Of a stretch of 64,000 bases of DNA, positions 40,613-64,000 are shown in pieces. Source of the stretch: an uncultured Nitrospira sp. (GTDB lineage: Bacteria; Nitrospirota; Nitrospiria; Nitrospirales; Nitrospiraceae); the NCBI GenBank assembly GCA_902500785.1, contig CABVRW010000014.1, forward strand, positions 1 to 64,000, read 5' to 3'. A program made the position numbers and the translations under genes. Position 1 is the stretch's first letter. The number at the start of each line of letters is the position of its first letter. A model generated the notes under the pieces. The model was not told the origin of the DNA, ran no database searches, and saw only the letters and a program-made list of their open reading frames with translations.

Positions 40613-41650
40613 TTAGTCCCATGTCCGAGGATAGTATCCCGTGTGCCAATATTCGAACAGGATCACCTTCCAAATTTCATCCGTTGTCAGGTGCTGTTCC
40701 CATGGTGGCATGACTGAGGCCCAAGGGAATCCTTCGTTCGGCAAACCGATTCCGCCCTTCGCGACACGCCAGAAAATGAATGTTTCCTGCAGCTGTGCGA
40801 TGGTTCCTGGATCTGTGAAGTTCGCCGGAATCGGATTAAACGCAAAGGCGTGGAGACCCCGGCCGTTCAGGTTGTCTCCGTGACAGAAGTGACAGTTCTG
40901 GAAGAATATTTCTCCGCCTTCCCGAACGTATTTGAGATATCCTTCAGCCTTGTCATCCCAGGGATTTGCGTTGGGGGCCATCAGTCTCCCCATTCCCTGC
41001 TCAACGATCAATTTATTGCTGTAGTCTTGGTCGTACTTCCCTTCGAGATTCACCCGGTAGGGATTCTGTGATGTTTGCAGCGTGTACGTCTTACCATGCA
41101 CCTTTGTACTAGCAGGTGGGGCAGGATGCACTGTTCGCAACTCGATCGGCTCATCAATACTTGGCTTCATGGTCATGAATGAGAACCCACCGATGAGTAA
41201 CGGCAGCAGAATCAAATACATCGTGCGGAGGGCTTTGTGGAATCCAGTATTCGCATCCAGAACATTGAGAATCGGCTGACGAAATTTCTTCCAGTCTTCT
41301 TCGTTTGCTGAAACCCACATGAATACAGCCACGAACGAGACGGTTCCGTACATCGCACGCACGCTGAATGGAATCGGCGGATAGATACGGAACTTGAGAT
41401 AGGTCTGGATAAAGACCCAAAACAACACACCCTGCCAGAACCTAGGAAATGCAACTCCCATTGAATTAGCCAAATAACTCAGGCCAGCGAAGCCAGCCAC
41501 GAAGATGGCCAGCTCACTCAATACCTGCATGGGCATGTAGCCCTCAACGAGCCTGATGGTGTTCGAGGGAATTACTCCGAAGATCATACCGATCAACATG
41601 AGCAGTCCCAGGACGCCGATCAATGCCACGACTGACATTAATGCTTTCAT
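40613..41650 (-). CDS. Membrane protein with C-terminal cytochrome c domain
   Basis: 345 residues. Four to five membrane helices occupy residues 1-165 (MKALMSVVALIGVLGLLMLIG, VLSELAIFVAGFAGLSYL, FWQGVLFWVFIQTYL, YLILLPLLIGGFSFM). The periplasmic part holds one CxxCH (CHFCH at C253) in GGEIFFQNCHFCHGDNLNG and ends with MPPWEQHLTTDEIWKVILFEYW, a standard class I cytochrome c ending with a Met ligand. Third of four large genes in the first oxidase operon. Confidence 0.85.
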   Translation of the reverse strand: MKALMSVVALIGVLGLLMLIGMIFGVIPSNTIRLVEGYMPMQVLSELAIFVAGFAGLSYLANSMGVAFPRFWQGVLFWVFIQTYLKFRIYPPIPFSVRAMYGTVSFVAVFMWVSANEEDWKKFRQPILNVLDANTGFHKALRTMYLILLPLLIGGFSFMTMKPSIDEPIELRTVHPAPPASTKVHGKTYTLQTSQNPYRVNLEGKYDQDYSNKLIVEQGMGRLMAPNANPWDDKAEGYLKYVREGGEIFFQNCHFCHGDNLNGRGLHAFAFNPIPANFTDPGTIAQLQETFIFWRVAKGGIGLPNEGFPWASVMPPWEQHLTTDEIWKVILFEYWHTGYYPRTWD

Positions 41651-41702: not shown

Positions 41703-43016
41703 CTAGGAAGCCTTGGGGGGCTCCTTCCCTTCCTGCACTTGCGAGAGGTAATCAACAATCTTCTTAAGCGCGCCGGCGCTGAGCTTTTGTCCGAACACCT
41801 TAGGCATCGTATTGTCAGGGAAGCCCTTCACGACATAAGCGCTGGGCTCGATGATGGATTCCATAATGTAGTCGGAAACGCTCTTAGCCTTGCCCTTATA
41901 CTCCTTGTCTTTGATTCTCAGAGGAGCGTTCGTGCCTTCGACCAGCTTCGGACCGATTGTTCCGACCGCACCAGCAATACCAGGAATGGTGTGGCAAGCT
42001 ACACATTGGCCCTTGGCAAAAATCTGATCCACTGGCTCAGTTCCGTCCGCCATTAAAGCGCTGGCTCCTGGCTTAGCATCGCCCTCTGTCGGTGGCTTCG
42101 GGCGATCGGACTCTGGGATGAACTTCTCATAGGATTTCACGATTTCATCAAAACTAGGAGCCTCTCGACCTTCCCGGACATAGAGCCAAGTGTCAACTGC
42201 GGCAAGCTCAGCTATGGACAAAGAAATTGGTGGCTTATGAATGGCCGGCATCGGGCTGACTTTGTCATTGGTTCCTTTGACACCATAACCAGCGACTACG
42301 AAGCAGCTCGGGCATGAATGGGATTCAGCGATATACTCCTGAGCATTTTCTGCTGTACCGGAGCCTGGAAAGGCCTCCTTCTGGTCCGAGTCACGAGCGG
42401 CTGGGTTGCCCTTGTGATACCGCGGGTCATCGATCTGAGTTCCGGCGCGCTCGGGAAGGCCATCGAGATTTGGCGCGCGTTCACCCAACATTCCCTTATG
42501 GAAAGCGTGGCACAATGGGCATTGACCTTTACCGATGGCACCCTGAACCTTATTCTGACCGACCCCCCCGAAAATGATCTTCTCACCTTCGTCAGCCAGT
42601 TCAGTTTGCGGCATGTTACTGAAATCTTTCTTCTCTTCAATCGGCGGAAATCCACCCTCTACCTGGGGCAACCAATTTCCATATCCGGAAAGAGCGGCGG
42701 CGATGAAAAACATGAATCCGCCAATTTTCAGCAAGGCGCTGATATTCGTGAAATAGAGCGCCATCATGAAGGTCATCGAAGTAATCAACACCAGAGACAC
42801 AGGCAAAAGCCTGGACTCTGCAAAGAAATTCATCTTGTAATTGGCGACAGCCATAAAAAGGAGCATAGCGCCGATAATGCCGATGAACGTCTTGAAGACC
42901 GCACGCTTGTTTGCAACAGGGTCTGAAATGGAGGCCTTAAAATAAAACAGTAGGCCCACCAGGATCCCTAATGCAGGCCAGCCCATCGCTAAGGCCGCTT
43001 TAATGAGTTCAATCAC
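41703..43016 (-). CDS. Membrane-anchored cytochrome c with two hemes and one degenerate motif
   Basis: 437 residues; four helices between residues 1 and 115, then a periplasmic part with CPLCH (C166) and CVACH (C338). Between them is CPSCF (C235-C238-F239), a heme motif that has lost its histidine. Cytochrome c folds are supported by GQCPLCHAFHKG, PMPAIHKPPISLSIAEL, GQCVACHTIPG and TMPKVFGQKLSAGALKKIVDYLSQ. GTG start with AGGAGGT upstream. It follows the CydA-like gene and probably passes electrons to it. Confidence 0.85.
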   Translation of the reverse strand: MIELIKAALAMGWPALGILVGLLFYFKASISDPVANKRAVFKTFIGIIGAMLLFMAVANYKMNFFAESRLLPVSLVLITSMTFMMALYFTNISALLKIGGFMFFIAAALSGYGNWLPQVEGGFPPIEEKKDFSNMPQTELADEGEKIIFGGVGQNKVQGAIGKGQCPLCHAFHKGMLGERAPNLDGLPERAGTQIDDPRYHKGNPAARDSDQKEAFPGSGTAENAQEYIAESHSCPSCFVVAGYGVKGTNDKVSPMPAIHKPPISLSIAELAAVDTWLYVREGREAPSFDEIVKSYEKFIPESDRPKPPTEGDAKPGASALMADGTEPVDQIFAKGQCVACHTIPGIAGAVGTIGPKLVEGTNAPLRIKDKEYKGKAKSVSDYIMESIIEPSAYVVKGFPDNTMPKVFGQKLSAGALKKIVDYLSQVQEGKEPPKAS

Positions 43017-43103: not shown

Positions 43104-45023
43104 TTAGTGACCAACCGCTGGTGCTGCCGCTCTACCAGGCACTGCAGCCTTTGCCTCGACCGGCGCCTTCTTTGCAGCAAGGGCCCCCAACCAAAATACG
43201 AACATAATCGAAATCCAGAAGAACAGTACGTTGGCTGAAATCATGTTCGCAGCAAATCCAACCGTATGCGTATAAGCCCATGGGGAATTGTCACGCATGA
43301 TTTCGTTGACGTGCCAGAACAGCCTGACAGATGACCTAATGTACCCCATAAGCCCCATCATCCATGTAAAGGCTGTGGCCAACATAATGAGCGCGTATTG
43401 AGAGCGGGCTGAAATTTTACCCCACTCAATTGGCCCCATCTGCTTGGCGCCTTTCATCATGACGCTGTTAAGCGCGAACATGAAGAACAGGCAGGATAAC
43501 GTCGTAGCCACCTGCGGAACAGAGAGTCCGACACGCACGTTGGCTGGAATGTAGTAGCCATAGATAGCCAACAGAATGATGTTGAGGTACGCAAAGAAGA
43601 AGAAACATCCCATGAAGATGTTCCCGAACTTTGACCACGACACCGTAGAGACCTTATTGCCTCGCATGTACCATACAAAGCTCAAGACGGTTGTTGTAAT
43701 AATGACGTTGATGCCGCCATTCTTAGCTGACATAACACCGTAATTACCAAGCACCGGGTGCTGCTGACCACCCATGGCCTTCAACTCCGCCGGAGTCATG
43801 ACGATGGTGTGCGGAGTGATAAAGACCAGAAATCCGCAAGTCAATAAGAATACCAAGTACTTAATGTAGCGTTGGTATTTTTCCGCACCACGCATCCGAC
43901 CAAGCGCCTGCCAGAGATAATAGTTAGTGCTCAGGAAGAGAATTCCGATCATGGTTGCCTGAATGATAAACAACCAAGCAAGCAATCCACCCATCAGAGT
44001 AATACCCATCTGTTGACGATAGGCATAGACCTCACGCATCAACCAGTACCCTGCAAATGGCAAGGGAATCAGAAAGGCCACACCGAGGGCCATTGCGATA
44101 TAGCCCATCCAGTCGTAGTGAGCACGCTCCTCGTCCGTTTTTGCCGACAAGAAACGGTAGGCCGCATATGCCGCCACAACACCACCACCAAACGCCATGT
44201 TGCCAAGAATTCGATGTAGATTGAGCGGGTTCCACAATGCCGTGTGAATCACATGCCAAATGTTGCCAAGATACCGACCCTGTTCGTCCACGCCGGCAGG
44301 CGACATCATGAAACCGATCCAGGAATTCGCCAAGAACATCAAAATCGTGCCGATGACGTTCAAGACCACCGACATACTGAGGTGGATCCACTTCAGAAAC
44401 CCCTCCTTCATCTTGTCCCAGCCGTAATAATAGATGTAGAGGGTTCCACTTTCGGCCACGAACATCAATGCATAAATATGCATCACCGGCCTAAAGATAC
44501 CCGACAGGTACTGGAAGAAGGCTGGATAGAGAGTCAGGAAGGTAAAGATCAGAATTCCGCCCAAAATGGCTGTCAGAGAGTAGGCTGTGAGGCTGATCTT
44601 AATAAAGTCATAGGCCAGCTGATCATACCGCTTAGCCATGGCCTTATCCTTGGTCACAACACCCATGAACTCGATGACCATACAGAAAATAGGCACAGCC
44701 AAGACGAAGCTGCCATAGTAGAGGTGCTGTTGATTGGCGAACCACAGCAGGACCCGACTTTCAAAGTTATATCGCGGATAGTCCTTCTCGCTGTCCGTTG
44801 TCTTGGGAGCCGGTGGCCCCGAGACAATCCCTTCGGTCTTGTAATAAACGTCCTTGCCCTTCTCAACCTTTGCATCACCGCCCTCTTTTTTCTCGTCGGC
44901 AGCAGGAGCGCCACCGTCGCTAGCAAGGGCAGGGATCGCAACCAGAATAGGCAAGAGGAGGAGGCCGATCATTGCGCCTAGCGCCATGATCGACATCAAC
45001 TTCGTGCGGGTTACAGAGCCCAT
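43104..45023 (-). CDS. Cytochrome bd-like terminal oxidase subunit (CydA-like), copy 1
   Basis: 639 residues, about 13-14 membrane helices plus an N-terminal signal or helix with an acidic linker. Histidines fit bd-type heme ligands: NQQHLYYGSFVLAVPIFCMVIEF (compare CydA His19 region) and LHRILGNMAFGGGVVAAYAAYRFL (compare His186 region). The CydA quinol loop is not recognisable. A perfect AAGGAGGT precedes the ATG. This is the bd-like family proposed as terminal oxidase in Nitrospira. The c-heme neighbours suggest cytochrome c, rather than quinol, as electron donor. Confidence 0.85.
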   Translation of the reverse strand: MGSVTRTKLMSIMALGAMIGLLLLPILVAIPALASDGGAPAADEKKEGGDAKVEKGKDVYYKTEGIVSGPPAPKTTDSEKDYPRYNFESRVLLWFANQQHLYYGSFVLAVPIFCMVIEFMGVVTKDKAMAKRYDQLAYDFIKISLTAYSLTAILGGILIFTFLTLYPAFFQYLSGIFRPVMHIYALMFVAESGTLYIYYYGWDKMKEGFLKWIHLSMSVVLNVIGTILMFLANSWIGFMMSPAGVDEQGRYLGNIWHVIHTALWNPLNLHRILGNMAFGGGVVAAYAAYRFLSAKTDEERAHYDWMGYIAMALGVAFLIPLPFAGYWLMREVYAYRQQMGITLMGGLLAWLFIIQATMIGILFLSTNYYLWQALGRMRGAEKYQRYIKYLVFLLTCGFLVFITPHTIVMTPAELKAMGGQQHPVLGNYGVMSAKNGGINVIITTTVLSFVWYMRGNKVSTVSWSKFGNIFMGCFFFFAYLNIILLAIYGYYIPANVRVGLSVPQVATTLSCLFFMFALNSVMMKGAKQMGPIEWGKISARSQYALIMLATAFTWMMGLMGYIRSSVRLFWHVNEIMRDNSPWAYTHTVGFAANMISANVLFFWISIMFVFWLGALAAKKAPVEAKAAVPGRAAAPAVGH

Positions 45024-45477: not shown

Positions 45478-45582
45478 ATGGCAAAAAATTCAAAAGTGTT
45501 CGACATTATAGTTTTGGCTGGAATGGTTGTCAATATCATTTTGGCCGTGTTCCTGATCCTCTACTACTTTGATTTCCTGTGA
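45478..45582 (+). CDS. 34-aa membrane micro-protein, divergent to the oxidase operon
   Basis: Start ATG 45478, stop TGA 45580-45582. The head MAKNSKVFD is followed by one long hydrophobic helix ending in YYFDFL. Only a weak GGGA ribosome site is visible. It overlaps by 47 bases, on the other strand, the last 15 codons of the sulfatase-modifying-factor-like gene, whose tail there (EITGNQSSRGSGTRPK) looks like low-complexity read-through. A third single-helix frame close to an oxidase is suggestive but unproven. Confidence 0.45.
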   Translation: MAKNSKVFDIIVLAGMVVNIILAVFLILYYFDFL

Positions 45583-46489
45583 TTTCCCCCACGGCCGCTC
45601 CTTCTACTGACTGCGCACTTCCCGCACTCGATTGAGCACAACGAAAGCCGATGGTTTCATCTCGAAAATCCAGCATCAACTTGCTGCGAGTAGTGATGCG
45701 CAAGTCTGATCCGGAGCTGGTATAGGCTGCCCCGCGTATCACCTTGTAGGTACCGTATTCGGGACCGACCGGATTACGATCTGCCGCTTCGGCGTAAGCA
45801 CCCTCAAGATACCAATCATCCACCCACTCCATCACATTGCCCGCGCCATCCATGACCCCATACGGACTCACGTCGCTCCTCACCTGGCCAACAGGCGCCG
45901 CTACCTTAAACCCGTCGTCCACCCGAGCCCAATTTGCACCATTCGGCACTTCAACGTTTCCCCACGGCCATAGACGCCCATCGGTTCCACGCATGGCCTT
46001 TTCCCACTCGGCCTCAGTCGGCAATCGCCGTCCACGCCACTCGCAGTAGGCCTTCGCATCTTCCCAGGAAACATAGACTGCCGGCTGATTTACTCCTCGC
46101 ATCCGCATCGTATTTTTCGCATAGCGCGAGGGGGGACCTGACTTCCGGTGTCCTGTCTCTTTCACAAAAGCGGCATACTGTGTGTTGGTGACTTCGTATC
46201 GATCGATGAGAAACTCGTCAAGGTAAATCGTCCGCTCGGGGCGTTCATCAAAGCCTCCCTGATTGGTTCCACGCACAAACGGCCCCGCAGGAATGGTCAC
46301 TAACTCCTCTGCTAACGGTTCTTCTGGTATCGAGGACTCAGGCGTCGAGCTAGCCGGCGCCTGCTCTGCAGACTGAGGTTCGGCTTCAAACGGAGTAGAG
46401 GTCGTCCCGCGAAAAATGGCAATCAGAGGCAAGCTGGCAGCGAACAGCACCACAATAAGAAAGATCACTTTGAATCGCGTTTCGAGCAT
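45536..46489 (-). CDS. Membrane-anchored SUMF1/FGE-fold protein, copy 1
   Basis: 317 residues: N-terminal helix (about 7-27), a Pro/Glu/Ser-rich linker, then a formylglycine-generating-enzyme-fold domain (about 65-290) with PAGPFVRGTNQGGFDERPERTIYLDEFLIDRYEVTN, RLPTEAEWEKAMRG, GNVMEWVDDWY, VIRGAAYTS, and ending TIGFRCAQSS. The active-site cysteine pair of true FGE is absent, so sulfatase activation is unlikely. The final 15 codons overlap a plus-strand micro-frame. It is last in a run that starts with a methyltransferase near 53.8 kb. Confidence 0.8.
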   Translation of the reverse strand: MLETRFKVIFLIVVLFAASLPLIAIFRGTTSTPFEAEPQSAEQAPASSTPESSIPEEPLAEELVTIPAGPFVRGTNQGGFDERPERTIYLDEFLIDRYEVTNTQYAAFVKETGHRKSGPPSRYAKNTMRMRGVNQPAVYVSWEDAKAYCEWRGRRLPTEAEWEKAMRGTDGRLWPWGNVEVPNGANWARVDDGFKVAAPVGQVRSDVSPYGVMDGAGNVMEWVDDWYLEGAYAEAADRNPVGPEYGTYKVIRGAAYTSSGSDLRITTRSKLMLDFRDETIGFRCAQSSAGSAQSVEGAAVGEITGNQSSRGSGTRPK

Positions 46490-46500
46490 GAGGCGACCGA

Positions 46501-47415
46501 TTACTTAACGACCACATCGGCCTCGAGGTCTTTCGCGCAGCGAAAGCCGACCGTAATGTCATGCCGCCACGGTTTTGCCTGGAATCGCTTTGACGAACGA
46601 ACGTTTCGCTTGGTTTCTCGCCAGGACCCGCCACGAATGACACGTTGTTCACCTTGATCGGGCCCTTTCGGATCGCGATACGGCGATGTCCGATAGAAGC
46701 TCTCATCGTAGAAGTCCGCGACCCATTCCCCGATATTCCCCGTCATATCGTAGATCCCGTAAGGACTGCGTCCCGACTCGAACGACCCCGGAGGAGCCAA
46801 GTAACGAAATCCATCTTCACTTCCATCGATATTGGCGTATCCCACCCTGAAGTCATCACCCCACGCGTATCGACGCTTTCCCTCACCGCGAGCCGCCTTC
46901 TCCCACTCGGCCTCCGTTGGCAACCGCTTCCCAGCCCATTTGCAATACGCCTCCGCATCATCCCACGTCACGGCAATCATCGGACTCTCCGGCTTGAGCA
47001 GTTTAGCGGGATCATCTTCAAACACTTCGATCTTTCGCTTGAGCCGTTTCGTCATCTTGGCAAACCGGTCATAGGAATCCTGCGTGACTTCGTACTTATC
47101 CATAAAATATGCTTTGAGGTAGACTTGGTGTTCAGGTTTTTCATCCGGATCACTATCGTTGTCCCGACTGCCCATCACAAACGGTCCCTCAGAGACTTGC
47201 ACCATCTCACGGCCGTCGTCTCCGATAAGCGTCTTATACATCGAAAAGTCTTGCGCGGCGGCCACTGGAACCGGCGCTGTCTCCGTCGTGATCGAGAGCG
47301 CCAACTGGCGCATCTGCTTGGCCTTATAGGACTCATAGACCAACCCGCCAATCATCAGGATAAACGACCCAAACACAAAGATAATCGACCCGATCAACAC
47401 GTTCCTGTTTTCCAT
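46501..47415 (-). CDS. Membrane-anchored SUMF1/FGE-fold protein, copy 2
   Basis: 304 residues: N-terminal helix (about 8-27), linker, FGE-fold domain with EGPFVMGSRDNDSDPDEKPEHQVYLKAYFMDKYEVT, RLPTEAEWEKAARG, RYAWGDDF, GNIGEWVADFY, VIRGGSWRETKRN and TVGFRCAKD. Paralogue of the next gene downstream; no catalytic cysteine pair. In other systems such domains are scaffolds or modifiers of exported proteins. The gap to the next gene is 11 bases. Confidence 0.82.
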   Translation of the reverse strand: MENRNVLIGSIIFVFGSFILMIGGLVYESYKAKQMRQLALSITTETAPVPVAAAQDFSMYKTLIGDDGREMVQVSEGPFVMGSRDNDSDPDEKPEHQVYLKAYFMDKYEVTQDSYDRFAKMTKRLKRKIEVFEDDPAKLLKPESPMIAVTWDDAEAYCKWAGKRLPTEAEWEKAARGEGKRRYAWGDDFRVGYANIDGSEDGFRYLAPPGSFESGRSPYGIYDMTGNIGEWVADFYDESFYRTSPYRDPKGPDQGEQRVIRGGSWRETKRNVRSSKRFQAKPWRHDITVGFRCAKDLEADVVVK

Positions 47416-48551: not shown

Positions 48552-50420
48552 CTATGCCTCATGCGACGGAGACGGCAGAAATCCTGCCTCCTTCTCCGCA
48601 CTTACATCTTCATGCATCACCGGCTGCTGCCCGCGCTGACAGACCCAGAACAGGAAGAAGACCGCCCCCCAAAACAGGACCATGTTGATCGTAACCATTT
48701 TTGCGGCGAACCCGAGCGAGGGCGTAAACGCCCAGGGAGACGTATCCGGCATCAAGTCGTTGACATGCCAGGCCAACCGACCGGAAGAGCGGATGTACCC
48801 CATCAAGCCCATCACCCAGGTAAATGCCGCAGCAAGCCCGAACAAACCGACCATTCCACGAACCGAAATCTGGCCCCACCGCACCGGACCGTGAATCGTG
48901 GCGCCACGCAACATGCGACGGTTCAACAGCAAACCCAGCGTCACGACCAGCAGCGTCGTCAGGGCCTGCGGACCAGACAACCCCACGCGCAGACTGGCAG
49001 GAAGATAAAATCCATACACCGATAACCCGATGATGTGCGCCCCCCCCAGACCGAACAAGGCCCCCAGGATGACATTCCCGGTTTTGGCCCATGAGATCGT
49101 CATCGTGCGATTCGCGCGGCGATAGTAGATATAGCTCAAGGCGGTGATACAGATCATCACATTGACCGCTCCGTTTTTTGACGACATGACGCCATAATTT
49201 CCGATCACCGGATGCTGGGCCCCGCCCATCGCTTTGACTTCCGTACCGGTCATGAGAATCGTGTGCGGCGTCAACCAGACAAACAAGCACCCCGTGAGCG
49301 CAAGCAGGAGATATTGATAGTACGACTGATAGCGCTCCCCTCCGCGAATCCGTCCCATGCTCTGCCAAAGATAGTAATTGACGCCGAGAAAGAGGGCGCC
49401 GATTAACAGCGCCTGCACCACGAAGAGCCAGGTCAGCAACCCGCCCATCATCGTCACACCCATGCTCTGACTGTATGCATACACGGAACGCATCAACCAG
49501 TAGCCGGCAAACGGCATCGGCAGCAACGCGCAGACCGTCACAAACAAAAACACGTAGCCGACCCAATCGTAATACGCCCGCTCTTCCTGACTTTTGCCGG
49601 AAAAGAATCGATAACAGGCATAGGCCAACACCACCGCGCCGCCCGACATGATGTCCGCGAGGAATCGATGCAGGTTCAAGGGGCTCCAGAGTGCCGAGCG
49701 AAGCAAGTGCCAAGGATTACCCAAATACCGCCCCTGCCCGTCGACACCGGAAGGCGCCATCATAAAGGCGGACCAGGCATTAGCCAACAACAGCAGCGAC
49801 GTTCCGAACATGACCGCCAGTATGCCGATCGAGAGATGGACCCACTTCGATCCCGGCGACGCCATGCGATCCCAACTGTAGTAATATGCGATCGTCAGAA
49901 ACGTCGTCCCGACGAACACGAGTGCATACAGCGGCATCATGACCTTGAAGGTGCCCCCCATGTACTGCATGAAGCTGGGATACAGCGTGATGAACATCGT
50001 CAGCATCACACTACCGACCGCTGCGGTGACGGAAATCGCCAGCAGCGCCACCTTCAATAGATCTTGCGCCAACCCGTCATAGCGCAAGGCCATCGCAGGA
50101 TTTCGTGCCATCAACCCCAGAAATTCCAACAGGACGCAAAAGATCGGCAAGGCCAGCACGAAGCCACCAAAGTAGGTGTGCTGCTGGATGATCACCCACA
50201 TCAGCAACCGGCTGTCGAGTGAGCCGACTTGCGGATAGTGGTTCTCGTTCGCCGTAGGCGCCGTGGGACCCGTGGGCACGCCGGGCGTATGGAAGTACAC
50301 ATCAGTGGACGGGTCGGCGGCCGACACTGGTGGCGGACTCAGCGACAAGAGGTTTGACACTAACATCGACCCGCACGCCAACAGCAGGAACACGGACAGA
50401 AGCGAAAGGCGTTTAGTCAT
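48552..50420 (-). CDS. Cytochrome bd-like terminal oxidase subunit (CydA-like), copy 2
   Basis: 622 residues, about 14 membrane helices. It aligns by eye with copy 1 along most of its length: QQHTYFGGFVLALPIF, YMGGTFKVMMPLYALVFVGTTFLTIAYYYSWDRM, LHRFLADIMSGGAVVLAYACYRFFSGKSQEERAYYDWVG, KAMGGAQHPVIGNYGVMSSKNGAVNV and DTSPWAFTPSLGFAAKMVTINMVLFW. Conserved histidines are kept. Unlike copy 1, it has no cytochrome c genes beside it; instead it overlaps by four bases with a polytopic membrane gene and precedes a DUF3047 gene. A different electron donor or a regulatory role is possible. Confidence 0.85.
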   Translation of the reverse strand: MTKRLSLLSVFLLLACGSMLVSNLLSLSPPPVSAADPSTDVYFHTPGVPTGPTAPTANENHYPQVGSLDSRLLMWVIIQQHTYFGGFVLALPIFCVLLEFLGLMARNPAMALRYDGLAQDLLKVALLAISVTAAVGSVMLTMFITLYPSFMQYMGGTFKVMMPLYALVFVGTTFLTIAYYYSWDRMASPGSKWVHLSIGILAVMFGTSLLLLANAWSAFMMAPSGVDGQGRYLGNPWHLLRSALWSPLNLHRFLADIMSGGAVVLAYACYRFFSGKSQEERAYYDWVGYVFLFVTVCALLPMPFAGYWLMRSVYAYSQSMGVTMMGGLLTWLFVVQALLIGALFLGVNYYLWQSMGRIRGGERYQSYYQYLLLALTGCLFVWLTPHTILMTGTEVKAMGGAQHPVIGNYGVMSSKNGAVNVMICITALSYIYYRRANRTMTISWAKTGNVILGALFGLGGAHIIGLSVYGFYLPASLRVGLSGPQALTTLLVVTLGLLLNRRMLRGATIHGPVRWGQISVRGMVGLFGLAAAFTWVMGLMGYIRSSGRLAWHVNDLMPDTSPWAFTPSLGFAAKMVTINMVLFWGAVFFLFWVCQRGQQPVMHEDVSAEKEAGFLPSPSHEA

Positions 50421-54108: not shown

Positions 54109-54906
54109 TTACTTGAGATCGGCCTTCAAGTTAGCCGTTCCACCTTCGGTAACCTCGACCTCGAATTCATTCAGCTTTCCTCTGCCCACGAACGGATGGA
54201 AGACAACCACCTTGTGCTTCCCAGCCGGAACGCCCTTGAGCTCGAACGATCCATCTTCCTTCACGATCGCATGGTAGGGATTGGCGACTGGGAGAAAGAA
54301 AGACTGCATGAACTCATGCTGGTCACACTGCAGGCGATAATAGCCCACCTTGTCTGCACCACCACGGAACTGCACCGGCTTGTCCAACGTGTCACCCTTC
54401 TTCGCCAGACCGATGTTGAAACCGGTGGCCGAGGAGGAGCCCTTCACCGTAAAGCTATGCGGATTGTGGAGCACACCCTGCGTGGACTTGGGATCATCAG
54501 GATCGGCATCGTGGTTTTCGACATGGAAGTTCTTGGTGTTCACCACCACACCGGCAAACGGCAGGAATTGGCAGAACTCTGCGATAACTTCCGTGCCCTT
54601 AAAGCCGTCGATGAATGACTTATCCTCGACGTCATGGACAGAAACGATCGCGTTCTTCAAGCCGCCATCCTTGCCTACTTCGATGGTCTTGAGGATACGC
54701 TTATCCCCTTGCACCAGGCTCGTGTCCGGAAGCTTGGGGCAGAACTTGGGGTTAGGGAATTTCGCAAAGGAGAACTCCTTCTGCTCTGCTTTCCCGGCAT
54801 AAGTCACTTTCCCGGAGATCGTACCACCGGCAAACGAGGCGAGAGGCGCAGCCAAAAATGCTGCGGCCGCAACGCCAAATGCTAATTTCATTGCACCCTT
54901 CTTCAT
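54109..54906 (-). CDS. Exported cupredoxin-like protein with C-terminal carboxypeptidase-regulatory-type domain, copy 1
   Basis: 265 residues with a clear signal peptide (MKKGAMKLAFGVAAAAFLAAPLASFA). The first part reads GGTISGKVTYAGKAEQKEF, with a C in NPKFCPKLP; the middle has VVVNTKNFHVENHDADPDDP and NPHSF. The copper-like region is YYRLQCDQHEFMQSFFLPVANPYHAI, followed by DGSFELKGVPAGKHKVVVFHP. H-C-H arrangement suggests one copper site in a cupredoxin fold. A single-gene unit ended by a strong terminator. Domain order matches the protein at 57,149-58,075. Confidence 0.72.
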   Translation of the reverse strand: MKKGAMKLAFGVAAAAFLAAPLASFAGGTISGKVTYAGKAEQKEFSFAKFPNPKFCPKLPDTSLVQGDKRILKTIEVGKDGGLKNAIVSVHDVEDKSFIDGFKGTEVIAEFCQFLPFAGVVVNTKNFHVENHDADPDDPKSTQGVLHNPHSFTVKGSSSATGFNIGLAKKGDTLDKPVQFRGGADKVGYYRLQCDQHEFMQSFFLPVANPYHAIVKEDGSFELKGVPAGKHKVVVFHPFVGRGKLNEFEVEVTEGGTANLKADLK

Positions 54907-55084: not shown

Positions 55085-56482
55085 TTAGGACTTCGCATGC
55101 TTGGGCGAGGGTTTCGCATGGTTGAGAATACGCGCGATCGACCCGCCCACAGTCGCCCGAACCGCATCATCTTCATCATGCAAGGCCGCCCTCAGGATCG
55201 GCAACACTTCCTCCCCACCGATTTGGCCGAGCGATCTGGCCGCAGCGATGCGAGGACGCGGAATCGGGTCCTTCAGCATGCCGGCGAGAAACTCAACCGC
55301 AGCTTTTGTGTTGGCGCCATGGGCCCTCCCCGCCGCTTTACCAGCCGCGGAACGAGCGCCAGGATCATTATGTTGCGCCAAATCATACAGCTCCCCGCCA
55401 ACAGCTTCAAACGGCTCCTCAACCCGCAACAACGCCGACACCACGGCCGCCTTTACCACCGGGTTCGGATCGGCCAACGCTTTCCTCAGCGCGGGCAGAG
55501 AATCCTTTACTCCCAATTCACCCAAGCTGATTGCCGCCGAGGTTTTAACCGCCGGAATTTTGTCCTCAAGCGCACGCTCCAGCGGAGGAATACCTTGCAC
55601 CTTCCCAAGGTCACCCAGGGCCGCGGCGGCGGCTCCCCGCACAGAAGGTTGCGTGTGCGTGATAGCCTCAAGAAGAATCGACAACCCGCGCGCATCCTTT
55701 ACTTCCCCGACCATCCGCAACGCCGTCGCACGCTCTTCAGGATTGGGGGCCGAAGCGGCCTTCTGCACCGTGTCCCACATCGTCGTCTGACCCGTATGAT
55801 AGAGCGCTCCCGCAGCAGCAAGGCGTACAGCCGGCTGTTCATCCTTCAACGCCCGCTCAAGCAGCGGAATCACCGAACGGTCCCCGCTTTTCCCCAACAC
55901 CTTCAGCACGGTCGCCTTCACGAGTCCAGCCTGATCTTCTAAGGCATTCCGCAATCTGGGCGAACGCCGCCCGGCTTCCAGTTTCCCCAAGGCTTCTGCC
56001 GCCAGCGCACGCACCAAGCCTGATCCATCGCTTAATCCATCCTCCAGGGCGGGGATCGTCTCCGGAGAATCCACGTCTTTCAATGCCGTGTAGGCAGCGC
56101 CTCGCATTTGCTCCCGCATGTCTTTCAGGAGCACGTACACGAACCCCAGCGCCACCTCTTTCAAGAGCGCGCGGTCTTCCCGCTTCATGACCTGTTCGAG
56201 TTGCTCGTACTCGACTAATGCATCCTTGGGCTTCCCCAGATAGATCAAGGAGCGAATCTTAAGGCGCCTGGTCTCCGGCTGAGGCCCCTGCTCTTTGGTC
56301 ACCTGTTCGACGAGATCCAGAGTCTCCTGATACTGTCTCTTGTCGAACGCCGCCTGCGCCTCCTTCACCGAACGCGCAACCGCAACGGACGGCCACAGAC
56401 ACACCAGTGGCCCGGACAAGGCCGCCAGTGCCATCCACCCGCTCACTGTCCGAAGCCAGCCCAACTTACCGTGCGATACCAT
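55085..56482 (-). CDS. Exported HEAT-repeat protein
   Basis: 465 residues. Signal peptide MVSHGKLGWLRTVSGWMALAALSGPLVCLW...VAVA, a short helical region resembling TPR (residues 40-110), then at least nine HEAT or PBS-lyase-type repeats such as SGLVRALAAEALGKLEAG, PAVRLAAAGALYHTGQT, PSVRGAAAAALGDLGKV, PAVKTSAAISLGELGVK and PRPRIAAARSLGQIGGE. Such solenoids bind proteins. The start at 56482 has AGGAAAG before it. Probably co-transcribed with the upstream LolA-like gene. Confidence 0.8.
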   Translation of the reverse strand: MVSHGKLGWLRTVSGWMALAALSGPLVCLWPSVAVARSVKEAQAAFDKRQYQETLDLVEQVTKEQGPQPETRRLKIRSLIYLGKPKDALVEYEQLEQVMKREDRALLKEVALGFVYVLLKDMREQMRGAAYTALKDVDSPETIPALEDGLSDGSGLVRALAAEALGKLEAGRRSPRLRNALEDQAGLVKATVLKVLGKSGDRSVIPLLERALKDEQPAVRLAAAGALYHTGQTTMWDTVQKAASAPNPEERATALRMVGEVKDARGLSILLEAITHTQPSVRGAAAAALGDLGKVQGIPPLERALEDKIPAVKTSAAISLGELGVKDSLPALRKALADPNPVVKAAVVSALLRVEEPFEAVGGELYDLAQHNDPGARSAAGKAAGRAHGANTKAAVEFLAGMLKDPIPRPRIAAARSLGQIGGEEVLPILRAALHDEDDAVRATVGGSIARILNHAKPSPKHAKS

Positions 56483-56511
56483 GCGATTCTTTCCTGGTCG
56501 TGCCACAGGCG

Positions 56512-57117
56512 CTACCCTCTCTCTTGTGTTGCAGATGTGGGAACCCAACGTTGATATCCCGTCGGTTCCTCAAAATAGTATTCAGGTTGGGAAGACAGCC
56601 GGAAGCGCACGTACTCAATGGACCAATCCCGATCCTGGCTTACCAATTTCAACACCACGCCTGTCTCGTCATCCACCCATTCATAAAACCGCTCGTTCCG
56701 GCCGTTGTAGTCCACCCGAACCTCGTAGAGCTTGGATGTACGCCCAACGGTCGTGGCATCGCCCACTAAATTTCGATTCGTTTCTCCCGGGAGAGTGGGC
56801 TGGATCGGCAGGATTTCTTCGGGCTTCACGGGCACCGGAAGAATTTGCCGGCGCTGCGCCAGCAAGAACCAAGACTCACGCTTATCCAATCGAATGATTT
56901 CTATACTGGAATAGCCCAGCTCAGTCTTGACCGCATACTTGTACTCCAGGCGGATGCGGTCGCCTTTTGCAAAAACCTGAGCCTCGAAACGACGTCCCTC
57001 AACACGCTTCACCAGCGAGGCAGAAAACTCAACCTGCCCCACAGGGGATCGGCCATCCTCTTCCGAGGCCTGCCCCACACCGGACAAACAGAGGATCCCT
57101 ACAAGACCAGCCTCCAC
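56512..57117 (-). CDS. Exported protein with LolA-like character
   Basis: About 201 residues. Beta-rich sequence with alternating strands (FSASLVKRVEGRRFEAQVFAKGDRIRLEYKY, YSSIEIIRLDKRESWFLLAQRRQILPV, SKLYEVRVDYNGRNERFYEWVDDETGVVLKLVSQD), the pattern of the LolA/LolB or DUF4412 fold. The start is a problem: no ATG lies in frame near a ribosome site. GTG 57117 gives a signal peptide without a positive head; a positive head (KQRWGRLSGW) lies upstream in frame, overlapping the next gene's stop. Function unknown. Confidence 0.55.
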   Translation of the reverse strand: MEAGLVGILCLSGVGQASEEDGRSPVGQVEFSASLVKRVEGRRFEAQVFAKGDRIRLEYKYAVKTELGYSSIEIIRLDKRESWFLLAQRRQILPVPVKPEEILPIQPTLPGETNRNLVGDATTVGRTSKLYEVRVDYNGRNERFYEWVDDETGVVLKLVSQDRDWSIEYVRFRLSSQPEYYFEEPTGYQRWVPTSATQERG

Positions 57118-57148: not shown

Positions 57149-58075
57149 TTAGTGTTGATGCTCCACCAACGGCCTAATCTCCACCGGATGACCGAGAGAC
57201 TCCAGGCCGAAACGGGGATTGTCCATGACCCTGTAGGACGTGCGAGTACCCTTCGGAGCGGGCAGCGCCACATGTTCCGCAGTCGTGCCGTCAGGACCGA
57301 CCGTAATCGTCCGGGTCACCCCCGGCCCTGCCTGCGGATGCCAGACCACCAGCTGATACGTCCCCGGAGGCACGTTCTCTATCTTGAAGGCCCCTTCGTC
57401 ATCCGTCACCGCATAGTACGGATTGTTGACGGCCATCGCCCAACTCTCCATATAGGCATGAAAGCCGCACTGCATGTAAAACGTCCGCCGCCCCTTGTTC
57501 AGATAGACCGGTCCGAGCAAGGATTTCCCCGGTGCATGGTTATGGATGGCATGAATATTCCCTCGTTGATGCTGATGGTTCAGGATCAGCGGGGTATTGA
57601 ACAACACGCGCGCCCCGGCCTCCGGCGAGGTTTCATAGCCCTGAATGTCGTGCATGACCGGATCCATGTTCACCACTTCCACCGCATGACCATTGCGCAC
57701 AATCGTCATCCAAGGACCGAACACGCAGTCGCGCGCTTCGATCAACGGCACCGAGAGATCAAAGGGTTTTCCGGCTTCGATTCCCTCAAGAAGCACGACG
57801 GCATTCTTCAGTCCGCTCTCAGCATTCACCACAAAGTCACGAAGCAGGCGCCAGCCCTTCCCGTTTGAAATCCGGCCGCAATAGGCGGGGTCCGGAAAGG
57901 TAATGAGATTGAACGCCTTAGGATCCGGAACGGCGCCCGACAAAGTCACTTGCCCTTCAACCGTTCCACCATGCTGCACATCGATGATGTCATAGGCTGA
58001 GACCGGAGGTGTAATCTGACACAACCAGACGAGGAGTGCAAAACAACTGAGCCAGCAGGAATGAGTCACCCTCAT
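57149..58075 (-). CDS. Exported cupredoxin-like protein with C-terminal carboxypeptidase-regulatory-type domain, copy 2
   Basis: 308 residues. Signal peptide MRVTHSCWLSCFALLVWLCQITPPVSA, then GGTVEGQVTLSGAVPDPKAF, a middle strand region with VEVVNMDPVMHDIQGYE, NHQHQRGNIHAIHNHAPGK (His-rich) and the copper-like motif FYMQCGFHAYMESWAMAVNNPYYAV, then a regulatory-type beta sandwich (GAFKIENVPPGTYQLVVWHP). GAGGG lies five bases before ATG 58075. It shares motif order with the protein at 54,109 and carries more histidines. Confidence 0.72.
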   Translation of the reverse strand: MRVTHSCWLSCFALLVWLCQITPPVSAYDIIDVQHGGTVEGQVTLSGAVPDPKAFNLITFPDPAYCGRISNGKGWRLLRDFVVNAESGLKNAVVLLEGIEAGKPFDLSVPLIEARDCVFGPWMTIVRNGHAVEVVNMDPVMHDIQGYETSPEAGARVLFNTPLILNHQHQRGNIHAIHNHAPGKSLLGPVYLNKGRRTFYMQCGFHAYMESWAMAVNNPYYAVTDDEGAFKIENVPPGTYQLVVWHPQAGPGVTRTITVGPDGTTAEHVALPAPKGTRTSYRVMDNPRFGLESLGHPVEIRPLVEHQH

Positions 58076-58439
58076 AGTGTCCCTCTTTCTCATTCGAATA
58101 GACCGTAGGGAATTTGCCGCTGCAATGCGTGACAAATATCCACCACCTTTCCAAACGATTCGGGCCCGCGGTGCCGATTTCCTCGATCGCATGAAGGCTG
58201 CGTCGCCCATTGAGAGGCTGAACCAAGCATCAGCGGGAGACCATCCACTTTTCAGAGATGGTTACTTCCTGCTTTACCATCGTGACCAATTCGGAAAGGT
58301 AGGCTTGTCACGCATGTTGAGAATGCAACGAGTCGGGCCGTTCACCTGCCTGCATCCAATCACAAATCCATTGTCGGCAGAAGCCAGACTCCGACGGCTC
58401 CAGGCACTTCTTTCATCATACACAATCATCGCCGCATAA
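58076..58439. other. Upstream region of the cupredoxin-like gene, no gene seen
   Basis: A stretch of 364 bases between the start of the gene ending at 57,149 and the terminator of the multicopper oxidase. Open frames exist on both strands but lack ribosome sites and protein character. It presumably holds the leftward promoter, which I could not place. Confidence 0.5.
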
Positions 58440-58508: not shown

Positions 58509-61500
58509 CTACTTTGCCGCGACAGGCATCGCATGTGCGGTCGGCTGTTCCACCTCAGCACTCTTGGTGCCGGAGCCGGCTCCAGCTAACGGCAACAATC
58601 GCGTATCGCCGGATGGCAATACCCGGACATAACCCCACTGGCCGGATTGCGAATATGGCAATCGCTGATTGCTATACACATAGTCGCCCGCCAAACGGTA
58701 CGGACCACCAGCCGAGGGGAGGAATGCGTCGAGCACTTCTGACCCGGAATATTCGACCACACTGATTTGGTCGGCGCCGCGCATGAAAGGCTCGATCGGC
58801 CATTCATGTTTCTCGACGCTGAACATTCCGTTCTGTTCATTGCTGACACCCAACACATGGATACGCACCGGGTCCCCGGCATGCGCCTCGATGATCGGGG
58901 TCACCGGATCTTCCGGCTTGTCCGCCTTACACGGCTGGAACACCTTACCGAGCGAGCAGCCCTCCTCCTCGCGGAACTTGTAGGGTTCCGACCGGTAGTT
59001 AACGCCGGTCAAACCCGCCACGTTCTGCACGTAGGGCATAAAGCTCGTGCCGATGATGTTGTCTTCATCCTGAAAGAACAACGCCACGTCACGATAATTC
59101 GCCCGCATTTCATTGCCCGGCACCGAACGATCGATAATGACATCAGCCGCCCAGGCATTTTTATTGGACAGATCCGCGCCGGTCTTAGGATCACGATACT
59201 TGGATCCCTTCGGTCCGACCACGACGGCTCCGAACAAGCCGTTCCTCGGATTGAGCATGACATTACCCCAATCCCACACCAACGAGGTCGTTTCCCCATT
59301 GAATGGATCGGCGTAATAGGTGTAGTCCCGCTCGGCCCCCGGAGCCACGGTTTGGTCACCCGGATTGTTCCCCACGTTCGCGCCCAAAGAATCCTTCGGA
59401 TCGAAGGCCAGGCCGATCGCAGAGAAGGAGGCCTTGCTGTCCTTCATCTTGTTTTTCAAATGGACCTTGACGCAATCACCCGTATTCACACGAAGCGTCA
59501 ACGGCATCGGATGCATTCCCCCTGCCACTTTCGCCGTGTCTTCCTCCAAAGCATAAATCTTGGCTTGGGGATTGGTCATTAGAATTTTGCGTTCGAAGTC
59601 TACCTCGATGGATTCCGGCGCCTTCGGGTTGAACTTCATGCCGGCATAGTCCATCGCAACCACATTGAACTGCTTGACGGGAGCATCGGCGGGACACACC
59701 GGCAAAGCCTTCGGCATCACGCCCTTGCTTGAGAAGCCCGCGGGCAACTTCTTCAAATCACCTTGCTCCTTATCGTGCACTCGGATGATTCCCCAGCCAC
59801 CCTCGGAGAATTTCGAGGAACGGCCGTTAAAGTGGATGTAGTCGCCGGCTAGATGCCGTGACCCGCCTGCCTCAGGAACCACCAGGTCATACCGCTCTGC
59901 AATACCGATATGAATCGAATTCTTTCGATTGGCATCCGACGCATACCGCTCGGTCCAGAACGTATGGCCGGACAGGGTCCAGACCATCGACTCGTTCATG
60001 AGGGTGTGCAACAGACGAAAGACCATCGTGTCCCCGACATACGCGCGCAAGGTCGGCGTATAGGGATCGCCATGGACCAAGCTGCTGAAAATCTGTGACG
60101 AATCAGGATTCGTCGCCAACCGCTGTGCAACCGGCGCCGCCCTGAAGTTCAAGCCGCTGCCGGTGGTGTGCGTACCACCGTTCAAGAACGGCATCGGCGT
60201 CATGTAGATCTTCTCCGGCATCATGAACGACACGGTCTTTCCTGCCTCAAGCGCCACTTCGATCGGCTGCCCGGGAGGATTGCCCGCTGTCACGATGTTG
60301 ACGGTGTGTGGCACGGTGTCATGCACTTGCACCATCAGTTCGCGGAAGCTGTTGTTCACGCCATGGCCGACCGGCTCATTCGTATGAATGTCTGCGATCG
60401 GACCGCTGCGGATCAGCTTTCCGGTCTTTGGATCATGGTAGGTCGATCCGACCGGCTCGGCAATGAACGTCCCGAAGCCGCCGTGTGGCCACGTGGTCGC
60501 GCCGAATGCATGGTCATGCCAGAACACCGTGCCCACGTCCGCGTCGACCCAGAACCGCTGCCGCACGAACTCGACCGTCACGATGTCATTGGCAGGATGA
60601 TCGTGCTTCAGCCCTTTGGCCAACGTGATCGTATTGCCATTGATCGCCTTGATACGGGAAATTTCATTGCCCTTTACATTGTCGGCACCCACGAGGATCA
60701 GCGTGCCAACGTGATACTGCTTGGCATTCTTCACCGTGATCGTGTTCGCGCCTTTTTTCGCCGGCGCGGTGAACACGGTGTTCATCGGGACAGGGAGTCC
60801 CTTCGCATTCTTCTTCTCCAGCATCGTGAACGGACGCACCGATTGCTCATAGGAGAATCCGGTGATCACGCCGTCGGACGCCTGATTGTCGAACTGTAAG
60901 AAATGCCAGTGGGTGTTGATCTTCGACGACTGAAAGTTCGTGTAGTCGTCGTCGTCCCACTCGCTGGTCAAGGTCCAATCCACGCAATCGTAGATATTGC
61001 CGCGGACGACCAGCGGATACTTCAGATCGTCGTTCTTCCGGATGTCGGCCTCTTCTTCATGCAACACATAGATCAACCCGTTCGGATCCACCACCGGTGG
61101 CTCCTTGCCGATCTTTCTGGCGATGGTGATCGGGAGCTTGATGAAGTGGACATTGTAGCTCTTTCGGCCGGCGTTTTCCGGACAGAGGCTCCAATTGCCG
61201 TTTTCACCAGGCAAGGCCTGATCGACGCTCTCCTCCCCGTTGGCATCTCGGCGGATCATCTCCAGCCAAGGCGCACCCACGTGGTTCGGGGAGAACATGA
61301 CGCGCTTTCCGAAGTGCGGAGTGAGGTGAGGCCAGGCAACCTTACCGGTCAACGGCTCAAAGGTGATCGGGTGCCGCTTCCCCGGATGAGTCGATTTATA
61401 CTTAGGATTATCGATCGTGCTTTCCGGTTCACTCAACGCACGGGTGCCTTCCCAGGCCCAATCCAACACCGTGGCATCGTAGGAGACGATCTGTCCCTTT

Positions 61501-63374
61501 TCGTCATTCTTGTGTCCCGGCTTGCCCATCGTCGGGAGTTGCATTTCAACCCAGTCCTTGATCGTGACAGTGGCTGGATTGGACTTCCAATCACTCTTGC
61601 CCTTCTCAACGATCTTGAACGACTTGCCGAACCAATCCACGGTCTGACCGACTAACTTATCCGAGGTGATCGGCCCTTTGATGCGACCTTTCCGATCGGG
61701 CAACTCCAGCAGATCCGGCATGATGTCATTACGCATGTCGCCCTGTTGAAGGGTGTTGTATACCCGCCAATACCCCCACATGCCCGCCACATAATGGTGA
61801 GCCACGTGGCAATGGAACAGGAAATCGCCGGCCAACTGCTGGCACAGGCCGGATCCGCACTCCGTCTCGAGATCCAACGCTTCTGACGGCCCGATGACTT
61901 CGACGTCGACACGGTCCGTCTTGGCACGGATAACCGGGTACTTGACCGGTCCGTTTCCGGCGGTCGTCCACAGATTCATGTCATCGATGGCACGAGGGCT
62001 GCGCGGCCACCGAATCGTACCGCCATGGGGATGGTGGCTATGGAACACTTCCGACCCGCCATGGACCAGGCGGAACTTCGCCGGATCGCCCATGTAGGAG
62101 CGCGGGATCGTGGGAGACGGATCGCCAAAGGTGTACGAGCTGTACCCCATCGACTCGTCTTCAAATCCAAAGTATTCGTGCTGCACGTGCATGTTGTTGA
62201 TTCCGAACGGCTCGCTGCGATAGTTGATTGCACGACCGCCCGGACGATACGCGTCGGTCAGGGGATCACGCTGAGGCAAGAAGTCGCCCTTCTTATTAAC
62301 GGGACGGAATGCTTCATCGCCGACCTCGTGATAGTACAGGACGAACTCACGAAAGTCCGGACCTGTCCCGTTCTTGATCATGACCTGCCAGCCGCTTTTG
62401 GCCGGAGTCGCATCACCGGTTCCCAACGCTTCCAAATACTCGGATCCGCGTGGCTCGACGACAAAGGACCCGAACAGGCCCATCACGGTCAATTCGCGGT
62501 CGTTGGCGAAGGTATGGAACTGCCGGACACCTTCCTGCGTGCTCGGGTGGATATACCACTCGAACTCTCCACTCTTCTCCGCGGGCACGATGCTGTCGGA
62601 GTTCGTCGTGGCGGCTGAGGCACCTGTGGCGCTTACCACCATGCTGGAGCCATGGATATGCAGGCTGACGTCTTCCCCGCCCTCCAACTTGTTGCTCAAC
62701 TTGATCTTGACGCAATCACCCTGGTTGCCGCGAATCGTCAGCGGCTGAATCCACTGCGCTTGCACGCCAGGGATCACTGCGCCCGGATCAAACCCGTCCA
62801 CATCACGCGCCACCCGGTTCTTTTCTTCCTCTGCGCGAACCTTCTCGAGGTTCTCATCCAACGTGTACATGTAGCCAGGATAGAAATCGAGCCACTGGTT
62901 GAGCGTGATCTCGACGTTAATTGCGGAGATGTTGTACTGCTTCACCGGAGCAGTGGCCGGGCACTTGCCTCCATTGCTCAAAGCCACCGGCTCCACCCGT
63001 GGGTCGGACATCAATAAGAGGTCCTGACCGCCCGCCCCATACTGGTGCATCATGGTCTGGGTATTGAACATACCTGTATTGACCTGTTGCGCCTGCGGAT
63101 CATGGGCTAAATGCTCCATAATCCGTTGGTGCTGTTGCTCGACCATTGCGGAACGCTCCGGCTTTCCAGCCATCGCATCTTCAACGATCGTTTGCCCCTT
63201 CAACTGCTCCGCCCACGGCGGAAGTTGATGGGTCATCGCCGTTTGTTGCGGCGCCGCATGATCCGCATGCGACTGAGCTTCAGCCGATGCGGTCAGCGGA
63301 AGACACACAAGCGCGCCGCCAGCGATAACGCTGAGGGCGCGCGATGTGACACGGGTGAACCAATGGCAATCCAT
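58509..63374 (-). CDS. Giant exported multicopper oxidase with triplicated cupredoxin units
   Basis: 1,621 residues with a signal peptide (about 1-32) and a His-rich linker. Three repeated units begin CPATAPVKQYN (138), CPENAGRKSYN (731) and CPADAPVKQFN (1227). Copper motifs: HIH (239-241), HSHHPH (445-450, the HxxHxH type), HCHVAHHYVAGM (521-532, HCHx3Hx4M with the type-1 Cys and Met), HWH (822-824) and HDH (953-955). The third unit has lost these. A complete type-1 plus trinuclear set is therefore possible from domains 2 and 3. Size recalls MofA/MnxG-type manganese oxidases; substrate unproven. AAGGAGG precedes the ATG. Confidence 0.85.
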   Translation of the reverse strand: MDCHWFTRVTSRALSVIAGGALVCLPLTASAEAQSHADHAAPQQTAMTHQLPPWAEQLKGQTIVEDAMAGKPERSAMVEQQHQRIMEHLAHDPQAQQVNTGMFNTQTMMHQYGAGGQDLLLMSDPRVEPVALSNGGKCPATAPVKQYNISAINVEITLNQWLDFYPGYMYTLDENLEKVRAEEEKNRVARDVDGFDPGAVIPGVQAQWIQPLTIRGNQGDCVKIKLSNKLEGGEDVSLHIHGSSMVVSATGASAATTNSDSIVPAEKSGEFEWYIHPSTQEGVRQFHTFANDRELTVMGLFGSFVVEPRGSEYLEALGTGDATPAKSGWQVMIKNGTGPDFREFVLYYHEVGDEAFRPVNKKGDFLPQRDPLTDAYRPGGRAINYRSEPFGINNMHVQHEYFGFEDESMGYSSYTFGDPSPTIPRSYMGDPAKFRLVHGGSEVFHSHHPHGGTIRWPRSPRAIDDMNLWTTAGNGPVKYPVIRAKTDRVDVEVIGPSEALDLETECGSGLCQQLAGDFLFHCHVAHHYVAGMWGYWRVYNTLQQGDMRNDIMPDLLELPDRKGRIKGPITSDKLVGQTVDWFGKSFKIVEKGKSDWKSNPATVTIKDWVEMQLPTMGKPGHKNDEKGQIVSYDATVLDWAWEGTRALSEPESTIDNPKYKSTHPGKRHPITFEPLTGKVAWPHLTPHFGKRVMFSPNHVGAPWLEMIRRDANGEESVDQALPGENGNWSLCPENAGRKSYNVHFIKLPITIARKIGKEPPVVDPNGLIYVLHEEEADIRKNDDLKYPLVVRGNIYDCVDWTLTSEWDDDDYTNFQSSKINTHWHFLQFDNQASDGVITGFSYEQSVRPFTMLEKKNAKGLPVPMNTVFTAPAKKGANTITVKNAKQYHVGTLILVGADNVKGNEISRIKAINGNTITLAKGLKHDHPANDIVTVEFVRQRFWVDADVGTVFWHDHAFGATTWPHGGFGTFIAEPVGSTYHDPKTGKLIRSGPIADIHTNEPVGHGVNNSFRELMVQVHDTVPHTVNIVTAGNPPGQPIEVALEAGKTVSFMMPEKIYMTPMPFLNGGTHTTGSGLNFRAAPVAQRLATNPDSSQIFSSLVHGDPYTPTLRAYVGDTMVFRLLHTLMNESMVWTLSGHTFWTERYASDANRKNSIHIGIAERYDLVVPEAGGSRHLAGDYIHFNGRSSKFSEGGWGIIRVHDKEQGDLKKLPAGFSSKGVMPKALPVCPADAPVKQFNVVAMDYAGMKFNPKAPESIEVDFERKILMTNPQAKIYALEEDTAKVAGGMHPMPLTLRVNTGDCVKVHLKNKMKDSKASFSAIGLAFDPKDSLGANVGNNPGDQTVAPGAERDYTYYADPFNGETTSLVWDWGNVMLNPRNGLFGAVVVGPKGSKYRDPKTGADLSNKNAWAADVIIDRSVPGNEMRANYRDVALFFQDEDNIIGTSFMPYVQNVAGLTGVNYRSEPYKFREEEGCSLGKVFQPCKADKPEDPVTPIIEAHAGDPVRIHVLGVSNEQNGMFSVEKHEWPIEPFMRGADQISVVEYSGSEVLDAFLPSAGGPYRLAGDYVYSNQRLPYSQSGQWGYVRVLPSGDTRLLPLAGAGSGTKSAEVEQPTAHAMPVAAK

Positions 63375-63738
63375 GGACCGGCCTCCTTGGATAGAGTTTG
63401 GAAAGGAATTGATGAAAACGTTATGAGCTTTTACGAGCAGAACATGACAATCCCGACCGAGATACGCGTTCTAGCTGTAATTCTGCGTGATACGGCACGC
63501 AGCACTCCATGTAAAACAAGTGTCGGAGACTACTGAAGTTCTCGGTCTCTGTCAACCCCCTCATGGCTTCCACGCGCGCAGCATCCCATCAGCCAAACTG
63601 GTCGGTGCGCGCATCCTCATCATCGCCCCAATCGATCGAGAGCACATGAACCTGGGGGGCACTCGCTCGCTCATCACTCACGCACCATTTACACTACACT
63701 GCATTGTCTCTCATCCGCAACTTCAGGCATAATGACGC
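63375..63738. other. Divergent intergenic region
   Basis: 364 bases between the leftward multicopper oxidase and the rightward permease. I find no convincing -35/-10 pair, RNA gene or repeat. Frames on the plus strand (for example around 63,487-63,732) have no ribosome site or recognisable protein character. Confidence 0.5.
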
Positions 63739-64000
63739 ATGATCTTGAAACGCTGGCTCGTTGGCCTGCCACTCAAGACGAAGGAAGCCGCTCACGAACG
63801 CCTTTCTAAGCGACTCGCCCTAGCCGTCTTTTCCTCCGACGCCTTATCCTCGGTGGCCTATGCCACGGAAGAGATTCTGCTCGTCTTGACGCTGGCCGGC
63901 GCGGCCATGATCGGCTATTCCATTCCGCTCAGCCTGTCCATCATCGGCTTGCTCATTATTCTGACCATGTCCTATCGGCAGATTATTTTCGAATATCCGG
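63739..64000 (+). CDS. APC-family permease, N-terminal part
   Basis: 87 codons before the window ends. MILKRWLVGLPLKTKEAAHERLSKRLALAVFSSDALSSVAYATEEIL is the N-terminus of a group of large APC-superfamily permeases, followed by two helices (LLVLTLAGAAMIGYSIPLSLSIIGLLIILTMSYRQII). The ATG at 63739 has no strong ribosome site. The substrate cannot be assigned from this piece; amino acids or potassium are typical of the superfamily. Confidence 0.8.
   Translation, partial: MILKRWLVGLPLKTKEAAHERLSKRLALAVFSSDALSSVAYATEEILLVLTLAGAAMIGYSIPLSLSIIGLLIILTMSYRQIIFEYP

Follow-up and report, generated by a model that had tools for sequence, protein, structure and literature searches.

In all bacterial six-domain multicopper oxidases examined by Vasin et al. 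(2013; PMC3600357), the trinuclear copper site lies between domains 2 and 3 and the T1 site is found in domain 2 only. The trinuclear site of the algal Fox proteins is likewise placed at domains 2/3, and the authors explained the arrangement by an ancestor with six domains from which different sites were lost. In the Nitrospina gracilis genome paper (2013; PMC3578206), the passages dealing with such an oxidase describe a periplasmic, MnxG-like multicopper protein that shows high conservation in Ca. N. defluvii and resembles the Mn oxidase of Bacillus SG-1, which was linked to a gene set comprising NXR and bd-like proteins and for which a role in defence against reactive oxygen by way of Mn(III) was proposed; motif order is not treated in those passages. 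MnxG has also been reported in Nitrospira metagenome-assembled genomes (MAGs) from Mn-removing sand filters, with a proposed role in manganese removal (PMC12070406).

The window analyzed here is a stretch of 64,000 nucleotides from a Nitrospira near N. defluvii, and encodes a six-domain multicopper oxidase of MnxG type (1621 aa) in an ORF with an ATG start at positions 58509-63374 (minus strand, as for the oxidase features and the cupredoxin, HEAT-repeat, bd-like and cytochrome genes mentioned below; Pfam Cu-oxidase_3 and Cu-oxidase_2). Residues 1-31 (63282-63374), with a basic N-terminus, a hydrophobic core and an ASA motif, probably constitute a signal peptide for periplasmic export. In N. 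defluvii, the orthologous oxidase (FP929003.1) was 95-96% identical and had the same neighbours, while the oxidase described in the above mentioned passages of PMC3578206 may be another N. defluvii paralogue. Three long paralogues of the six-domain oxidase were present in the genome of the window itself, namely the window copy (C14) and two others (C63, 75%; C3, 68%).

The chain is composed of three units, corresponding to domains 1 and 2 (unit 1, residues 138-560; 61695-62963), domains 3 and 4 (unit 2, residues 731-1222; 59709-61184) and domains 5 and 6 (unit 3, residues 1227-1600; 58575-59696), the first two delimited by their CP-starts together with repeat comparison. The near-identical starts that the initial annotation had noticed in its three units were found at residues 138 (CPATAPVKQYN), 731 (CPENAGRKSYN) and 1227 (CPADAPVKQFN), and self-BLAST identified the units as genuine repeats (E = 4e-20 for units 1 and 3, 3e-18 for units 2 and 3, and 2e-10 for units 1 and 2).

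By ligand positions and their conservation across 81 sequences, only domain 2 carries T1 ligands, and those of the trinuclear site are shared between domains 2 and 3. Domain 2 contains HSHHPH (residues 445-450; 62025-62042), with T1 ligand H445 and trinuclear ligands H448 and H450, which aligned with the HVFHYH region of MnxG, and HCHVAHHYVAGM (residues 521-532; 61779-61814), with trinuclear ligands H521 and H523 and T1 ligands C522, H527 and M532; H527 aligned with MnxG position 340, which is changed to Ala in the structure 9bxa. The trinuclear ligands of domain 3 are provided by HWH (residues 822-824; 60903-60911) and HDH (residues 953-955; 60510-60518), aligned with HIH and HDH of MnxG, respectively. 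The initial annotation had thus correctly located all of these motifs, with the 'C-terminal' ones ahead of the 'N-terminal' HxH pairs. Residues H447, H448, H450, H521, C522, H523, H527, M532, H822, H824, H953 and H955 were identical in 81/81 sequences and H445 was kept in 80/81, a conservation that, judged from the alignment, is far beyond chance.

Outside domains 2 and 3, a partial copper site was kept in domain 1, where a remnant HIH (residues 239-241; 62652-62660) retained H239 in 69/81 and H241 in 56/81 sequences, and H287 was present in 81/81. The ligands of unit 3 were gone, as previously noticed, the corresponding regions reading SFSAIGLAF and NGMFSVEKHEW, and those of domain 4 were gone too, leaving domains 4-6 without any copper ligands. 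Besides the domain 1 site, a second HDH (residues 924-926) had been overlooked in the initial annotation. It sits inside an insert of about 75 residues (860-935; 60570-60797) that separates the HxH pairs of domain 3 and was delimited by alignment with a Priestia MnxG-like protein; MnxG has no such insert. His926 was invariant, and a Pfam scan of the insert gave no match.

The chain was modelled with AlphaFold in two overlapping parts, whose confidence was modest (mean pLDDT 66.9 and 75.0), and the models were compared with known structures. The top Foldseek match for both was 9bxa, the Mn oxidase MnxG of Bacillus sp. PL-12 (1.2e-52 and 2.1e-47, with runners-up at 9.5e-24 and 2.6e-16), which was also the closest PDB match at the sequence level (phmmer E = 1.2e-75; profile E = 2.9e-105), in agreement with the kinship first suspected from the size of the protein. 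By VIA, residues 143-1229 were superimposed on MnxG 1-829 (Z 23.4, rmsd 4.3, 691 aligned) and residues 740-1599 on MnxG 447-1217 (Z 21.7, rmsd 3.5, 648 aligned, 28% identical). Since both models are collinear with MnxG over these ranges, the chain as modelled consists of six cupredoxin domains collinear with those of MnxG and follows the MnxG plan along its whole length. Domain 2 was poorly modelled (pLDDT <50 over residues about 440-537; shallow alignment of 66 rows), and the meeting of domain 2 and domain 3 ligands at one copper site, as anticipated for this nitrifier protein in the initial annotation, is suggested by homology and collinearity with MnxG.

The order of the motifs had been regarded as a departure from the family, a claim that did not hold: the 'reverse' order is the standard, already known layout of six-domain oxidases in bacteria and algae (PMC3600357). 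HCH precedes HIH and HDH in MnxG (9bxa), the same order was found in the Priestia plasmid MnxG-like protein (1228 aa; HSFHYH at 280, HCHLYPHFGEGM at 333, HVH at 528 and HDH at 574), and a Streptomyces homologue showed it too. Differential loss of sites after triplication explains this order, and the partial ligands in domain 1 (H239, H241, H287) together with their absence from domains 4-6 fit the loss scenario of PMC3600357. Circular permutation of a laccase was considered and rejected, since the chain arose by triplication of a two-domain unit and is collinear with MnxG. Also rejected was an additional trinuclear site at the 6/1 interface: neither an HxxHxH nor an HCH motif was detected in domain 6, which does not correspond to a ceruloplasmin-type site and leaves domain 1 without partner histidines, though H239, H241 and H287 persist in most relatives. 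The Nitrospira oxidase is an ordinary member of a known family, and neither its layout nor the protein is new. Because the Priestia MnxG and the Streptomyces homologue fell on very long branches in the tree, no statement is made on kinship inside the wider family.

Taken together, the protein is very probably a six-domain multicopper oxidase of MnxG architecture that acts in the periplasm and reduces O2, with its T1 site in domain 2 and its trinuclear cluster at the domain 2/3 interface, both presumably occupied by copper. Given the conserved ligands and the established chemistry of multicopper oxidases, the T1 copper (H445, C522, H527, M532) would accept single electrons from the reductant, and these would travel via C522 and its flanking histidines (a His-Cys-His bridge) to the trinuclear cluster (H448, H450, H521, H523, H822, H824, H953, H955), where O2 would be reduced to water. 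Domains 4-6, having lost their copper, would be structural. The ancestor would have been a triplicated two-domain oxidase with three sites, of which ceruloplasmin would have retained the 6/1 site and the Nitrospira lineage the 2/3 site. The reductant would most likely be either a metal in a low valence state, with Mn(II) ahead of Cu(I) or Fe(II) and favoured by kinship and published proposals, or a neighbouring cupredoxin, favoured by gene order.

In relation to its distribution, the oxidase family was detected in 147/147 Nitrospiria genomes sampled, mostly in several copies each, and outside this class a phylum-wide draw yielded only weak matches. NxrB matches counted as close (90% or more) were confined to the order. 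In 24 class members outside the order, including one single-contig genome (G207), the NxrB match was absent or weak (E = 1e-6 to 1e-10) and the oxidase was present in 24/24, NxrB absence in draft genomes calling for caution, as the window's own assembly is also without a full NxrB. That assembly (G000) is otherwise near-complete, and the missing full-length NxrB probably reflects an assembly gap at the multicopy nxr genes. A nitrite-specific role is weakened by the presence of the oxidase in class members without close NxrB, and the oxidation of nitrogen compounds, suggested in the initial annotation, found no support, as the gene is present throughout the Nitrospiria genomes sampled, those 24 among them. 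Paralogues of the six-domain oxidase were arranged in tandem or near-tandem, within about 7 kb, in other Nitrospira genomes (L027, L049, L091). Some contigs assigned to Nitrosospira, Opitutales and Nitrosomonas (L059, L072, L082) also carried a Nitrospira-type oxidase, probably as a result of binning errors.

A true Mn(II) oxidase, producing periplasmic Mn(III) or Mn oxide for reactive-oxygen protection (as put forward in the passages cited from PMC3578206) or for manganese removal (PMC12070406), would be in line with this universal occurrence in the class, with MnxG being the nearest solved relative, and with those proposals and the detection of MnxG in MAGs of Nitrospira from Mn-removing filters; it would specify the reductant of the oxidase. 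However, identity to MnxG was about 24-28% (structure alignments), the NCBIfam MnxG equivalog model (NF041487) gave 129.3 bits vs. a curated cut-off of 3100, and Mn oxidation is still undemonstrated in nitrifiers of several families (PMC11995701). Moreover, no codirectional ORF of at least 80 aa was present directly upstream of the oxidase (63374-64000), so mnxE/mnxF-like small genes are lacking there. Mn oxidation by the Nitrospira enzyme, already proposed by others, is plausible, and we regard a true Mn(II) oxidase as a substantial possibility that falls somewhat short of probable. Because the equivalog cut-off was missed, the oxidase is not to be called MnxG; its proper name is 'MnxG-type six-domain multicopper oxidase'.

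The oxidase is the first gene of a conserved block in the window, followed by two cupredoxins, a HEAT-repeat protein (55085-56548), two cytochrome bd-like oxidase subunit I homologues (48552-50420 and 43104-45023; Pfam Cyt_bd_oxida_I) and two c-type cytochromes (41703-43016 and 40613-41650; Pfam Cytochrom_C and Cytochrome_CBB3). CupA (57149-58210), a cupredoxin-like protein with a C-terminal carboxypeptidase-regulatory-like domain (Pfam CarboxypepD_reg), has T1 ligands H187, C248, H251 and M254, which were kept in about 134/136 family members, and CupB (54109-54906) is a second cupredoxin-like protein. Their C-x2-H-x2-M motifs read CGFHAYM and CDQHEFM, respectively, and family members often lie behind the oxidase gene. 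Two adjacent FGE-sulfatase (formylglycine-generating-enzyme-like) genes are located within the bd-like/cytochrome part of the block (45536-47415), and similar genes were observed beside other oxidase copies.

A cupredoxin-like gene was found within 1.6 kb downstream of the oxidase in 59/78 copies. This arrangement, the conserved cupredoxin T1 ligands and the bd-like oxidases and cytochromes c of the block are consistent with CupA and CupB feeding the T1 copper, so that the oxidase would divert electrons from nitrite oxidation into a side branch that consumes O2. Also consistent with such a branch, several genomes (among them G053:C20, G242:C22, G134:C1, G128:C1, G168:C1 and G253:C1) had nxrB followed on the same strand, after a few kb, by an oxidase copy; for the N. 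defluvii orthologue of the window copy, the distance to the nearer nxrB is about 60 kb. Against it, 19 copies, including the C63 paralogue of the same genome, had no adjacent cupredoxin, the oxidase was universal in the 24 class members without close NxrB, and the cupredoxins could alternatively be copper chaperones or serve NXR. We consider this side branch possible, but doubtful. A broader reading, in which the class-wide and multi-copy oxidase-cupredoxin pair would link the periplasmic electron chain of the Nitrospiria to O2 through a branch not recognised before, its redox partner being Mn(III) or a cupredoxin and its origin predating nitrite oxidation in the class, is speculative and rather unlikely.

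The position of a periplasmic multicopper oxidase next to copper proteins could also reflect copper detoxification by Cu(I) oxidation, in a CueO-like role, and the copper-resistance oxidase model TIGR01480 did match the sequence. This match was weak (31 bits vs. a cut-off of 479), and other short multicopper oxidases of the genome (C92, C28) could take that role, which we consider improbable for the six-domain protein.

The class-wide distribution and the cupredoxin pairing are new here, and the interest of the locus lies in them and not in the motif order. That the dominant nitrite oxidisers universally carry several copies of a putative metal oxidase, often accompanied by cupredoxins, opens a direct experimental route to the question whether Nitrospira uses it for Mn oxidation or for oxygen defence.

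Compared with known systems, the MnxG-type oxidase shares with MnxG (9bxa) and the Priestia MnxG-like proteins the six domains, the motif order, the T1 site in domain 2, the distribution of trinuclear ligands over domains 2/3, and collinearity over the whole chain. MnxG is shorter (about 1227 vs. 1621 residues), whereas the Nitrospira protein has an extra domain 3 insert, longer linkers and a probable signal peptide. Gene context differs as well, with cupredoxin genes downstream of the Nitrospira oxidase and mnxE/mnxF upstream of MnxG; two small ORFs precede the Priestia MnxG-like gene, like in mnxEFG. Two-domain (small) laccases, matched by one unit of the Nitrospira oxidase at Z about 17, are likely to represent its ancestral unit. 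These laccases function as homotrimers with three trinuclear sites, whereas the Nitrospira oxidase is one chain with one predicted site. Ceruloplasmin and hephaestin resemble it in having six cupredoxin domains through triplication (fold match Z about 19), but differ in the location of the trinuclear site at domains 1/6 and in the extra T1 sites of domains 4 and 6 (PMC3600357).
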